Positions 35,803 through 50,553 of a stretch of DNA of 50,553 bases are shown one piece after another (position 1 is the stretch's first letter; every line of letters starts with the position of its first letter). This stretch comes from Thermoplasmata archaeon (GTDB taxonomy: Archaea; Thermoplasmatota; Thermoplasmata; Lutacidiplasmatales; UBA184). The DNA lies in NCBI GenBank assembly GCA_021826685.1, contig JAKAYT010000007.1, positions 1 through 50,553 on the forward strand, in the 5' to 3' direction. A program made the translations under genes and the position numbers. Under the pieces are notes generated by a model. It saw only the letters and a program-made list of their open reading frames with translations, searched no databases and had not been told where the DNA came from.

Positions 35803-36987
35803 CTACACTCCCGCACTCTCTCCTACGTGCGACTCCTGGGTCCACCGACCCCGCCAGAAACGTGACAGTTGAACGAGTCCCAGCAGGACGGGCACTTCCA
35901 CTAGGGGGCCGACCACGCTCGCGAACGCCACTCCGGAGGAGATGCCGAAGACCGCGACGGCGACCGCGATCGCCAGCTCGAAGTTGTTGCTCGCCGCGGT
36001 AAGACTCAGTGCGGCGGTGCGCGGGTAGTCCGCCCCCGCCCGCCGTCCCATTTCGAAGCTGCTCACGAACATGACGGCGTAGTAGAGCACCAACGGTATC
36101 GCGATCAGGAGCACGTCAAGCGGGGCGGCGATGAACGCGGCCCCTTGATAGGAGAACATGACGAGGATCGTGAACAGAAGTGCCCACAGTGCTAGGGGAG
36201 CGACCGCCGGAAGGAACCGCTCGGAGTACCAACGGTCGCCCCGCCAGCGTCGGAGGAGGACGCGCCCGGCGTACCCCGCAAGGAATGGGATGCCAAGGTA
36301 GAGGAGAACGCTCTCCACGACCACCGGCCAGGCGATGGTAATGGCGCCGGTGGAGACCCCGACCAGGGGAAAGAGTACGACGGTGAAGAAGAGGATATAG
36401 ATGGGATAGAAGGCGACCTGAAAGAGGCTGTTGAACGCGACCAGTCCCGCCGCATACTCGCTGTGCCCGCCGGCGAGATCGTTCCATACGAGCACCATGG
36501 CGATGCACCTCGCGCTGCCGATGAGCACGAGACCGATCAGGAACGCGGGCTCCCCGCGCAGGAAGATCACGGCGAACGCGAACATGACGAGAGGCCCGAC
36601 GAGCCAGTTTTGCAGTAGGCTGAGACCGAGGATCTTCGGGTCCCGGAAGACGGAGCCCAACTTTTCGTAACGGACCTTCGCGAGCGGGGGATACATCATC
36701 AACATCAGCCCGAGTCCGATGAACAGTGGCACAGGGGTTCCCGGCACCATCGCAAGCCCGACGACGGCTCGGAATCCCGGCGCCACGTAGCCGAGCAGGA
36801 TGCCAATCCCGATGGCCAGAATGATCCACAGGGTGAGATACCGGTCCCGGAAGGATAGGCGACGGGGCCGAGCGAGCCCAGGAGACGCGTCGCAATCGTC
36901 CGAGGACACGGGCGGACACGCGGGATCCTTCGGGAGTTCCGACCGATTGGGGTCGGACTCCTCCGAACTCCTAGACTGCCCCATCAT
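35803..36987 (-). CDS. acr3: ACR3 family arsenite efflux permease
   Basis: MYPPLAKVRYEKLGSVFRDPKILGLSLLQNWLVGPLVMF, GSARCIAMVLVWNDLAGGHSEYAAGLVAFNSLFQ, AASNNFELAIAVAVAVFG. Confidence 0.95.
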   Translation of the reverse strand: MMGQSRSSEESDPNRSELPKDPACPPVSSDDCDASPGLARPRRLSFRDRYLTLWIILAIGIGILLGYVAPGFRAVVGLAMVPGTPVPLFIGLGLMLMMYPPLAKVRYEKLGSVFRDPKILGLSLLQNWLVGPLVMFAFAVIFLRGEPAFLIGLVLIGSARCIAMVLVWNDLAGGHSEYAAGLVAFNSLFQVAFYPIYILFFTVVLFPLVGVSTGAITIAWPVVVESVLLYLGIPFLAGYAGRVLLRRWRGDRWYSERFLPAVAPLALWALLFTILVMFSYQGAAFIAAPLDVLLIAIPLVLYYAVMFVSSFEMGRRAGADYPRTAALSLTAASNNFELAIAVAVAVFGISSGVAFASVVGPLVEVPVLLGLVQLSRFWRGRWTQESHVGESAGV

Positions 36988-37406
36988 CTGCCTCGCCGTC
37001 GATCGGGGGTGGGCGTGAGTGGCTCGCCGGCTTGTTCACGAGTCCTTCGACCCCTTCCCAAACCCACGAGTCCACCTCCTGAAATCCCGGTTCGGGACGC
37101 TGCGCAGGATCCGAAGGGTGCCCGTCCTTCCAAGGGACGTCCGCTGGCATCGTCCCGCCCGGGGGAAGGCGAGGCACGCCGTCGTCATCACCCGGGCGGC
37201 GGAACGTCCCCACTTCGGAGAAACGAACCGGGGGAAGGCGCATCGGAACCTCGGCGCCGGTCGGTGCGAGGTGCCGGTGCGACCTCGAACGATCGCGGGG
37301 AATGGGCCGAGAAACTCGGTGTCGCGAAGGGCGACCTCTCGCGAGTGCATCCACCGTCCGACGGGTTCGCCGGAGACCGCAGAGTGCGAGGGGGCGGCAC
37401 CCAAGG

Positions 37407-37868
37407 TCATTCTACCGATCCCGCGGCCACATCCTCCGCCACTCCGTTTTGGCGGCGATCGGATAGAACGAGCTCGGCTCGCAAGCTCCTCACGAGCTGC
37501 TGGATGCGATCACGGACCTGTCGGAAGCCTTCGTCGTTGAGGGTCGCGGGGTCGGGAAGCGACCAGTCCCTCAGTTCCATCGTCTTGAGTCGGGCCGGAC
37601 AGCTCGCGTCATCGAGGCATCCCATCGTGATCCGTACCCGAGCGCGATCGATCATCTCCGCGGTCAACAGCTGTGGCGGATGGGGCGGAAGATCCCGCCC
37701 GAGCTCACGAAGCATGGGCCCGGTGCGCGGGTTCGCTTCGCGGGCCGGTCGGGTACCGGCCGAGATCGCCATCCATCCGGGAGGAGGATCGGCGTTGAAG
37801 ATCGCCTCCGCCATCAAGGAGCGACACGCGTTCTCGACGCAAATGAACAGGGCCGTCCTCGGGGTCAT
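37407..37868 (-). CDS. arsC: Arsenate reductase, low-MW phosphatase type
   Basis: LFICVENACRSLMAEAIFN (CX5R), ISAGTRPA, ITMGCLDDASCPA, DWSLPDP. Confidence 0.9.
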   Translation of the reverse strand: MTPRTALFICVENACRSLMAEAIFNADPPPGWMAISAGTRPAREANPRTGPMLRELGRDLPPHPPQLLTAEMIDRARVRITMGCLDDASCPARLKTMELRDWSLPDPATLNDEGFRQVRDRIQQLVRSLRAELVLSDRRQNGVAEDVAAGSVE

Positions 37869-38653
37869 CCCGTTCTCGTCCTCCGTTTCGTGGCGCGGAT
37901 CGCCGCCGCGACCACCCCGAGCGAGGCTTGTTCCCGGAGCGAGTCAACGGGTTGAGTACGGGAGGTGACATCGATGTCTATCTCGGTGAAGCCCACCCTC
38001 CGCAAGAGGGTCGTGAGTCGTGGAATCTCCATGGCCCCGCTCGAACACGAGGTCCAGAGCGCGGGGTCGTCGCGCTCCTTGGCCGCGATCTTCCGGGTCG
38101 CGACCACATCCGAGACCGCGAGTCGGCCACCGGGGCGCAACACCCGATACGCCTCGCGGTACACGGCGTCTTGGTCGGGAGCCAGGTTGATGACGCAGTT
38201 CGACAGCACCACGTCCGCCGATCGGTCGGCCACGGGAAGATGCTCGATCTCCCCCAACCGGAACTCGACGTTGCGATAGCGACTCGAGCGCGCCAAGGCC
38301 CGGGCCTTGGCGAGTATCTCCGGCGTCATGTCCACGCCAATGACGCGGCCGCGGGGGCCCACCCGCTTCGCCGCTAGAAAGCAGTCGATCCCGGCGCCGC
38401 TTCCCAGATCGACTACCACCTCACCGGGGCGAAGCGACACTAGCGAGGTGGGGCTCCCGCATCCTAGACTGAGATTCGCGCCGGCCGGGAGCGTCGCCAG
38501 TTCGTGCGGATCGTAGCCGATCTGGATGGCCGCCGAGGGTTCGCAACAACCGTTGGCGGGAGGCGAGAAAGAGGCGCGGGACGCGATCTCGGCGTAACGG
38601 GCACGGACCTGCGCGCGGAGCCGGTCGGGGTTCTTCACGGCACCGGGCCTCAT
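37865..38653 (-). CDS. arsM: Arsenite S-adenosylmethyltransferase
   Basis: VRARYAEIAS, NLSLGCGSPTSLVSLRPGEVVVDLGSGAGIDCFLAAKRVGPRGRVIGVDMTPEIL, VLSNCVINLAPDQDAVYREAYRVLRPGG, CSSGA. Confidence 0.93.
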   Translation of the reverse strand: MRPGAVKNPDRLRAQVRARYAEIASRASFSPPANGCCEPSAAIQIGYDPHELATLPAGANLSLGCGSPTSLVSLRPGEVVVDLGSGAGIDCFLAAKRVGPRGRVIGVDMTPEILAKARALARSSRYRNVEFRLGEIEHLPVADRSADVVLSNCVINLAPDQDAVYREAYRVLRPGGRLAVSDVVATRKIAAKERDDPALWTSCSSGAMEIPRLTTLLRRVGFTEIDIDVTSRTQPVDSLREQASLGVVAAAIRATKRRTRTG

Positions 38654-39030
38654 GGGATCGTGCTCTCCACTCCCTTCGTGAGCCGGTAGTACATCCACTT
38701 CCCGCGGCGTCGCCCCTCGACCACTCCCGACTCGACAAGGATTCCCATGTGATGGCTGACGGTCGCATGGCTCAGGCCCGTGACGGCTTGGATCTCGCAC
38801 GCGCACAGCTCGCCGCGTCGCTTGAGCAGCGAGACCGCGAGCAACCGATGCTCGTCCGCGAGAGATTTGATGCGACGCAGAGCCTCGTCGAATCCCTTCG
38901 ACCGGAGCATCGTGTCTCCCAGCGCGGCGTATTCGGGCAGGCAACAATCCGCATCCTCGCCGGTCAGTCGTTCCAGGCGCCTTCCGAGGGTGACATCGAC
39001 CTTCGCGGCGGCCATTGGGTCGATGGACAT
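38650..39030 (-). CDS. arsR: ArsR family arsenic-responsive repressor
   Basis: wHTH LLKRRGELCACEIQAVTGLSHATVSHHMGILVESGVVEGRRRGKWMYYRL; ELCAC resembles the ArsR metal-site ELCVC. Confidence 0.92.
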   Translation of the reverse strand: MSIDPMAAAKVDVTLGRRLERLTGEDADCCLPEYAALGDTMLRSKGFDEALRRIKSLADEHRLLAVSLLKRRGELCACEIQAVTGLSHATVSHHMGILVESGVVEGRRRGKWMYYRLTKGVESTIP

Positions 39031-39207
39031 CAACACGAATATATGTAGATGATTATCGACATGATGTTCTCGGTGCGACGTACGGCAGGCGAGTCGGCAA
39101 CGACTCGGTAGGCGGGCCCGGTCCCATCGCACGAAGCGGACGAAGGACGACCGCTTGGTACTCGCCCGGCGGAACGCCCATAACTCTCGAGACCTACGCC
39201 GTGCCGG

Positions 39208-40527
39208 ATGAGCGTCGAGTCGTCCTTGATCGGGATGCTCTTCATCGTCTTCCTCCTCGCGAAGGGCCTCGGATGGCTCTGCGAGAGGTTCCATCTCCCG
39301 AGCTCGGTCGGGGCGATACTCGCGGGCGTGATCATCACGAACCTGGTGATCGGGCCCTTCAGCTTCGCGGACTGGCTGGGAATCAATCTCTTCTCGTCGG
39401 GCGACCAGTTCAACCTGACCGCTCTCGAGGTCTTCTTCTACCTTGGTCTGATCTTCCTCGTTTTCACGATCGGTCTGCGAGTGGGGCCGGCGGCCGTGCG
39501 CGCGGTCGCGCGGAGAGGATTCGAGGTCGCCCTCGTGGGCGTCGCCGTCCCGGTCCTTCTAGGGATCGGCTTCCTCCTGATCTTCATTGGAGATTCGAGA
39601 GTCTACTCGATTCTGTTCCTCAGCTCGGCCCTCGCGGCGAGCTCGCTGGGGATCGTGACTCTGCTCGTACACGAGCAGGGCCTCGTCGGGGAAGCGGAGG
39701 GGCACCTCCTCTTGACCGCGGCCTTCTTCGAGGACGTGATCGCGTTCCTCCTCCTCGCGATCCTGATCGCCCTCGCGGACTACGGTTCGCCCGCCGACCC
39801 GCGCTTTCTCGCCCAGGTCGGGCTCGTCCTGGCCTTCGCGGTCGCCTTCGTTGTGGGGTTCCTCGTGTTCGGCGAACGAATCGGGCGCGCCGGGGGGGCC
39901 GCGGCGCGCCGGTTCGCCGCCGCTCTCCAGCTTAAGAATTGGTCGAAGCCGGACGGATCTCCGACCGACCGCGCGAAAGGCGGGATGTTGGGGGTTGCCC
40001 TCCTGGTCTGTTTGGGAGCCGGATACCTCGCCTCGTCCTTCGAACTCGCGGCGATCCTCGGCACGTTCTTCGCCGGCATGACGATGTCCGGAGTCGCCGT
40101 GCGCTACGGAACGGACCGCGCGTTCGACGCGTTGAACGCGCTCTTCGTCCCCTTCTTCTTCGTGTTCATCGGCCTCTTTTTGAACGGGTCTCTCCTCGCC
40201 CCGGTATGGCTACTGGCGGTCGAGATCACCGTGATCGCGGTCGTCGGTAAGATTCTCGCCGGTCTCGCGCATACACGTTCCCTGGGGCGCTGGGGCGCAC
40301 TGCGCGTCGGGACAGCCTTGACGTCGCGCGGGGAGGTCGGGATCGTCATCGCCATCGCCGCGACCAGCTCGGTGGGCGTAGGCGCGATATCGAACAGCTA
40401 TGCGAGTGCCATCATCGTGATGGCGATCGCCACCACGATCATTGGACCGGCCTTGTTCTTCCGAGTCCATCGTTCTCCCGCCCGCGCGCGCGCCCCAGAG
40501 ATGGCGCCGCCCTCCCCGAACCCGTAG
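39208..40527 (+). CDS. Cation:proton antiporter (CPA2/KefB type)
   Basis: LARGELY hydrophobic; GWLCERFHLPSSVGAILAGVIITNLVIGPF, FELAAILGTFFAGMTMSG, GTALTSRGEVGIVIAIAA. Confidence 0.9.
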   Translation: MSVESSLIGMLFIVFLLAKGLGWLCERFHLPSSVGAILAGVIITNLVIGPFSFADWLGINLFSSGDQFNLTALEVFFYLGLIFLVFTIGLRVGPAAVRAVARRGFEVALVGVAVPVLLGIGFLLIFIGDSRVYSILFLSSALAASSLGIVTLLVHEQGLVGEAEGHLLLTAAFFEDVIAFLLLAILIALADYGSPADPRFLAQVGLVLAFAVAFVVGFLVFGERIGRAGGAAARRFAAALQLKNWSKPDGSPTDRAKGGMLGVALLVCLGAGYLASSFELAAILGTFFAGMTMSGVAVRYGTDRAFDALNALFVPFFFVFIGLFLNGSLLAPVWLLAVEITVIAVVGKILAGLAHTRSLGRWGALRVGTALTSRGEVGIVIAIAATSSVGVGAISNSYASAIIVMAIATTIIGPALFFRVHRSPARARAPEMAPPSPNP

Positions 40528-41034: not shown

Positions 41035-41139
41035 GCCGCCGTAGCTCAGTGGTAGAGCGATCGGCTGTTAACCGAAAGGTCAGCGGTTCGAAAGGCGGGC
41101 CCGATCTCGCGAGCCCGCCCCAAATCCCGCTCGGCGGCG
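41035..41139 (+). tRNA. tRNA-Asn(GTT) with putative T-loop intron
   Basis: GCCGCCG TA GCTC AGTGGTA GAGC, anticodon loop CTGTTAA, T-stem AGCGG/CCGCT, acceptor CGGCGGC; 33 extra nt in the T-loop. Confidence 0.88.
41093..41125 (+). other. Putative 33-nt tRNA intron, position 59/60
   Basis: Fold: AGCGG|TTCG|AAA|GGCGGGC...GCCCGCC|CCAA|ATC|CCGCT: 4-nt central helix (3 of 4 pairs) with two 3-nt bulges. Cutting after base 2 of each bulge leaves a 7-nt T-loop TTCGAAC. Confidence 0.72.
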
Positions 41140-41160: not shown

Positions 41161-41236
41161 GGGCCCGTAGCTCAGTCCGGTCCAGAGCGACCGGCTCATA
41201 ACCGGTTGGTCGACGGTTCAAATCCGTCCGGGCCCA
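41161..41236 (+). tRNA. tRNA with CAT anticodon (elongator Met, or tRNA-Ile2)
   Basis: GGGCCCG TA GCTC...GAGC, anticodon arm ACCGG-CTCATAA-CCGGT, T-arm GACGG-TTCAAAT-CCGTC, CGGGCCC A. Confidence 0.94.

Positions 41237-47959: not shown

Positions 47960-50553
<2,594 letters not shown>

Follow-up and report, generated by a model that had tools for sequence, protein, structure and literature searches.

Bulge-helix-bulge introns in the T-loop of tRNA genes from a Lutacidiplasmatales genome and their spread through Thermoplasmata

The tRNA-Asn(GTT) gene at 41035-41139 (+) of a 50,553-nt stretch of DNA (the window) from a soil archaeon of the Lutacidiplasmatales raises the question of whether its 40-nt T-loop contains an intron and, if so, which kind of EndA would remove it. 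The initial annotation proposed a bulge-helix-bulge (BHB) intron. Inspection of the sequence recovered every structural element it had described, including acceptor (GCCGCCG/CGGCGGC), D (GCTC/GAGC) and T (AGCGG/CCGCT) stems, an anticodon arm reading ATCGG-CTGTTAA-CCGAA with an A27.A43 opposition, and, within the loop, a hairpin, a TTCG/CCAA helix and the bulges AAA and ATC. The features of the locus are as follows.

41035..41092 (+): tRNA-Asn(GTT) exon 1, positions 1-59, ending in TTCGAA (sequence; Rfam RF00005; ARAGORN after splicing)
41067..41069 (+): anticodon GTT (sequence; ARAGORN on the spliced form)
41087..41090 (+): 5' strand of the BHB central helix, TTCG, equal to T54-G57 (sequence)
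41091..41093 (+): 5' bulge AAA, predicted cut between 41092/41093 (in silico splicing; AA comes first in 140/148 related genes)
41093..41125 (+): 33-nt intron at 59/60 (in silico splicing; homologues)
41094..41119 (+): 7-bp intron hairpin, GGCGGGC (41094-41100) / GCCCGCC (41113-41119) (sequence; covariation)
41120..41123 (+): 3' strand of the central helix, CCAA, with a C.C mismatch opposite C56 (sequence)
41124..41126 (+): 3' bulge ATC, predicted cut between 41125/41126 (in silico splicing)
41126..41139 (+): tRNA-Asn exon 2, positions 60-73 (sequence; in silico splicing)
41161..41236 (+): elongator tRNA-Met(CAT), an intron-less neighbour (ARAGORN, Rfam, congeners)

The unspliced gene drew no call from ARAGORN, and its Rfam tRNA match was limited to 41035-41088 (37.4 bits). 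Excision of 41093-41125 (33 nt) left the loop TTCGAAC and an ARAGORN call of tRNA-Asn(gtt), reproducing the cut rule, product and 59/60 site put forward originally. The insert has two 3-nt bulges around a four-position helix, and a cut behind the second base in both bulges fits this arrangement. The helix pairs are T-A, T-A, a C.C mismatch and G-C, so that the intron falls outside the strict BHB subtype (4/4 central pairs) and, because of C56.C, is a relaxed BHB; strict central pairing defines that subtype, not the class of 59/60 introns. A split or permuted tRNA arrangement is absent here, as both exons lie in order within 105 nt. The precursor fold had a z of -3.63, with 0/200 shuffles equally stable. 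The intron is held with high confidence to be real, and it belongs to a known kind, the archaeal BHB intron.

Two observations were named at the outset as grounds for abandoning the proposal: a second, normal tRNA-Asn(GTT), and relatives revealing an assembly artefact. Rfam (E up to 10), BLAST and a custom covariance model detected no second tRNA-Asn in the window genome, and since the assembly is 90% complete some room for another copy is left. The near-complete congener G029 (rated 100% complete) gave a single BLAST match to the gene. If the organism makes its tRNA-Asn from the only gene detected, splicing would be obligatory. As to the relatives, BLAST over 61 genomes found a full-length, intron-bearing tRNA-Asn in most congeners, with the site and flanking bulges in common and a different hairpin in each. 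An artefact of assembly or binning might be suspected in an assembly of 60 contigs, but the insertion site is common to about 60 separately assembled genomes with differing intron sequences, and the relatives thereby refute this scarcely credible reading. A scan of species genomes with the tRNA-Asn intron pattern matched mostly assemblies named "Thermoplasmata archaeon", together with Candidatus Lutacidiplasma silvani AcS3-62, a named Lutacidiplasmatales genome (PMC9287336) whose tRNA-Asn (L182) has a perfect TTCG/CGGA central helix and is identical to that of congener G185 (L297). Bacterial matches of the scan were judged to be chance ones, with poor BHB and inner-helix pairing, and 0 passed the tRNA-Asn check. 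In most congeners displayed, a tRNA starting like tRNA-Met(CAT) follows tRNA-Asn. Congener G022 carries two tRNA-Asn genes (L030, L055) with different T-loop introns.

For 36 related introns that share one length, the major base accounts for 97.6-98.9% in exon columns and 65.6% in intron columns. In the same set, the two halves of each hairpin form on average 8.8/10 pairs with each other versus 6.5 when halves from different species are combined, and 0/10,000 permutations reached the observed pairing, in a test that ignores kinship. Most of the hairpin pairs occur as several types, among them GC, CG, AT, TA and GT. These data bear on the idea that the mature RNA retains the insert or that the gene is a pseudogene. 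With a loop of 40 nt the D-loop/T-loop elbow of a tRNA is unlikely to form, the gene is the sole tRNA-Asn found, and both splice sites are conserved while the intron body drifts, all of which make a retained insert or a pseudogene highly improbable.

This intron is not a lone oddity: 13 of about 35 tRNAs detected in the window genome carry T-loop introns at 59/60, with lengths of 25-38 nt, and a single rule splices each of these tRNAs to TTCRAAY. After in silico splicing, the expected isotype is recovered for Asn, Arg(TCT), Arg(TCG), Ser(GCT), Ser(GGA), Gly(TCC), Ala(GGC), Gln(CTG), Glu(CTC), Asp(GTC), Lys(TTT) and His(GTG); Leu(TAG) does so only if a D-loop insert is also removed. Congener G029 shares at least the introns of Asn, Arg(TCT), Glu(CTC), Gln(CTG), Ala(GGC), Gly(TCC), Ser(GCT) and Ser(GGA), and has a further one in Ser(CGA). 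With regard to intron transposition between isoacceptors, as in Thermoproteales, similarity between intron pairs of the window genome is modest at most (among 55 pairs the highest z was 5.2, for Ser(GCT)/Ala(GGC), and the median 1.5), and GC-rich hairpins common to the introns inflate these values. When left unspliced, three of the genes (L023, L076, L123) were called by ARAGORN as tRNA-Arg(TCT), Gln(CTG) and Asp(GTC) with 3' parts that were partly intron-derived; automatic annotation can thus look normal yet be wrong.

Other insertions are found in the same tRNA set. For example, tRNA-Lys(TTT) (L118, contig C14:30441-30582 of the window genome, G000) has a D-loop insertion besides its T-loop intron, and this insertion is also seen in several families of the class (L343 in G039, L333 in G114, L340 in G180). 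Further D-arm insertions affect tRNA-Arg(GCG) and tRNA-Leu(TAG). A tRNA of 106 nt whose anticodon is CAT, probably initiator Met, has an extra stretch ahead of the anticodon stem; the loci concerned are L078/L121 (C22), L136 (C41:108874-108977) and L017 (C32), the CAT tRNA included. A simple scan did not recover a clean BHB for the D-loop insertions of Lys(TTT) and Arg(GCG) or for the stretch in the 106-nt tRNA, and the intron count given here excludes them. At the thresholds used, no tRNA-Pro, Cys or Trp was seen in the window genome; these may lie in the missing 10% of the assembly or be more heavily interrupted.

The occurrence of such introns across the class was estimated with a covariance model of T-loop-intron tRNAs, which replaced an earlier loose pattern (GTTCRAAN{9,39}YGRANNYC) that proved unspecific, with many coding matches and weak contrast to the control. 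In the window genome, the model scored class-I intron-bearing tRNAs at >=66 bits and canonical tRNAs at <=60 bits. At least one match was present in 111/160 class genomes. At E up to 1e-12, all 24/24 genomes of the window's family had 5-9 matches and 87/136 class genomes outside it had 1-3; because the E filter is strict, with class-II and weak cases lost, these counts are lower bounds. Inspection of 50 loci from the class search, mostly the best-scoring ones but drawn from many families, found a T-loop-intron tRNA in 50/50. Those inspected outside the family sat mainly in Arg(TCT), Lys and Met, and in most of them the TTCG/CGAA helix was perfect. A T-loop intron in Thermoplasmata had been considered unexpected, a view that the matches in 111/160 genomes and the genuine cases at 50/50 loci overturn. 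T-loop introns are spread through Thermoplasmata and are multiplied in the window's family.

Motif statistics were drawn from 148 distinct related genes, a partly redundant and non-independent set of species. The two-bulge cut rule leads to TTCRAAY in 140/148. The intron partner of base 57 goes with whether that base is G or A: G57 faces C in 88/92 genes and A57 faces G (40) or T (12) in 52/56 (Fisher p about 1.7e-31, for non-independent genes). The central helix has 4/4 pairs in 70/148 genes and at least one broken pair in 78/148, the commonest defects being a lost pair at 57 (45 genes, mostly A.G) or at 56 (22, mostly C.C). The C.C at 56 is shared by a group of congeners, the window genome among them.

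Which EndA would act on these sites? The window genome has one EndA gene with two PF01974 domains (L103:1477-2538, minus strand), which encodes 354 residues if read from the GTG that homologues suggest as its start, and an RtcB gene (E 1.3e-172). A two-repeat EndA gene was found in 29/29 class genomes tested, with a weak second repeat in two and a third weak match elsewhere in one. The protein aligns along its length to the alpha'2 EndA of A. fulgidus, and its AlphaFold monomer model (pLDDT 92.7) has as its nearest solved folds those of Methanopyrus kandleri (5x89, TMq 0.87) and A. fulgidus (2gjw). Y292, H300, K331 and R324 are invariant in 28 EndA homologues. Judging from the alignment, the first three would correspond to the catalytic Tyr/His/Lys of A. 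fulgidus and R324 to the bulge-contacting Arg280. The enzyme is of alpha'2 type in being a tandem-repeat single chain with the catalytic Tyr/His/Lys in its C-terminal repeat. Neither separate alpha and beta EndA genes nor an alphaN-alpha-betaC order was encountered, the catalytic residues being in the second repeat.

Broad-specificity EndAs are either (alpha-beta)2 enzymes with the crenarchaeal loop, CSL, or epsilon2 enzymes with the ARMAN loop, ASL. The CSL/ASL insertion, expected immediately ahead of LSLIE in the catalytic repeat, is absent (YGSRVGARLELSLIE in the window genome versus YGSEKGDLVTLSLIE in A. fulgidus). Its site was located by means of the crenarchaeal loop grafted into the chimaera 3p1y; there the window-genome EndA has a short, A. 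fulgidus-like turn. An alignment of 28 class EndA sequences showed CSL/ASL at the known position in 0/28.

A broad-specificity EndA had been thought necessary for an intron at this site, a supposition at odds with the genome's only EndA gene, which encodes a two-repeat, alpha'2-type enzyme without CSL/ASL. While alpha'2 EndAs are described as narrow and limited to canonical BHBs (PMC6379350, PMC12397907, PMC4033280), one source states that homodimeric EndAs also cut BHL-like motifs and that the Ferroplasma EndA cuts minimal BHBs (PMC8707768). Position in the T-loop alone therefore needs no broad enzyme; imperfect central helices, rather than position, might demand one.

The gene and its motif, the single cut rule that yields normal tRNAs, the conservation and covariation, and the genes for EndA and RtcB are all read directly from the DNA. 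Together they favour, with a probability of about 0.93, a BHB intron at 59/60 in the sole detected tRNA-Asn, cut by the alpha'2-type EndA and joined by RtcB; its transcription, cleavage and ligation are what we infer. In the precursor, T54-G57 would pair with the intron's 3' end, so that two 3-nt bulges flanking the four-position helix are exposed, with the covarying hairpin as a cap. EndA would then cleave between the second and third bases of both bulges, and RtcB would ligate A59 to C60 to give the normal T-loop. Counting against this account are the C.C mismatch in the central helix of a substrate for an EndA type described as limited to canonical BHBs, the unconstrained minimum-energy fold of the precursor, which mispairs exon bases outside the hairpin and misfolds the cloverleaf, and the 90% completeness of the assembly, which leaves some room for a second tRNA-Asn.

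The first of these points invites a further step. A Crenarchaeota-like intron load at one site, together with an EndA without CSL/ASL, suggests that the enzyme may tolerate mismatched helices by an undescribed route, a proposition rated at slightly below even odds. If true, it would depart from the co-evolution that has been proposed between EndA loops and the variety of introns. A more specific version, which is somewhat more doubtful, has the EndA of this clade evolving relaxed specificity through an unrecognised element that allows mismatched central helices. One candidate is the PRGG..KTP..FW segment, conserved at about residues 109-121 of the N-terminal repeat. It exceeds its A. fulgidus counterpart in length, includes R110-G111, which do not vary among 28 sequences, and is possibly an RNA-contacting element. 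Mismatched helices are frequent (78/148) compared with the mostly perfect TTCG/CGAA helices of other inspected families, and the EndA of M. kandleri, the best structural match, slightly cleaves a relaxed BHB despite having no CSL/ASL (PMC6379350). However, the segment also occurs in class members with few T-loop introns, and so does not track intron number.

The BHB intron favoured here can be set beside several known systems. Archaeal non-canonical introns at 59/60 are known mainly from Crenarchaeota (PMC4090602). Those introns share the position and the BHB recognition, whereas the present case involves Thermoplasmata, an alpha'2-type EndA and 13 isoacceptors of one genome at one site. Genuine tRNA-Asn T-loop introns were also found in Bathyarchaeota (L146, L155, L159, L190) and Thaumarchaeota (L162, L201). 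In L146, L155, L159, L162 and L201, gene and site are the same and the central helix is perfect; the introns are shorter (14-28 nt) and different in sequence. The alpha'2 EndAs of A. fulgidus, T. acidophilum and Ferroplasma (2gjw, 2ohc, PMC8707768) likewise have two tandem repeats, C-terminal catalytic residues and no CSL/ASL. In contrast, the window EndA is longer (354 versus 288-305 residues), has a longer N-terminal repeat, and presumably acts on T-loop sites with imperfect helices. The fused EndA of M. kandleri (5x89) also lacks specific loops (PMC6379350); it is 27% identical to the window EndA and comes from a different lineage.

According to a review, intron-bearing tRNA genes make up about 8% in Euryarchaeota versus about 48% in Crenarchaeota (PMC4090602), and varied introns have been linked to EndA loops (PMC6379350, PMC12397907). 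Here, 13 of about 35 tRNAs are T-loop-interrupted under a loop-less alpha'2-type EndA, which makes that link directly testable with one enzyme and two substrates. Since many such genes are overlooked, cut short or wrongly extended by ARAGORN and Rfam, tRNA counts for such genomes may be too low. In the open literature, as distinct from subscription papers and tRNA databases, no report of these introns was found for Lutacidiplasmatales, nor any of T-loop introns for Thermoplasmata. Within that searchable literature, what seems new is how abundant they are at a single site in one Thermoplasmata family, together with their class-wide spread under a loop-less EndA.

Why the introns are kept is a question separate from how they would be removed. 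Randau and Soll suggested that introns disrupt integrase attachment sites in tRNA genes (summarised in PMC4390854, PMC3293823), and tRNA gene termini do serve as attB sites (PMC3293823). Position 59/60, the one site at which the introns are concentrated in many isoacceptors, lies in the 3' part of the gene, as would suit introns retained because they break the site used by archaeal integrases. This explanation is compatible with a BHB intron and, on present evidence, unlikely.

Elsewhere in the window, reading frames at 35803-39294 resemble, by eye, an arsenic resistance cluster (ArsB/ACR3-like permease, ArsC-like, ArsM-like methyltransferase, ArsR-like), and an archaeal 23S rRNA gene identified with Rfam occupies 47962-50553 and runs off the window end.
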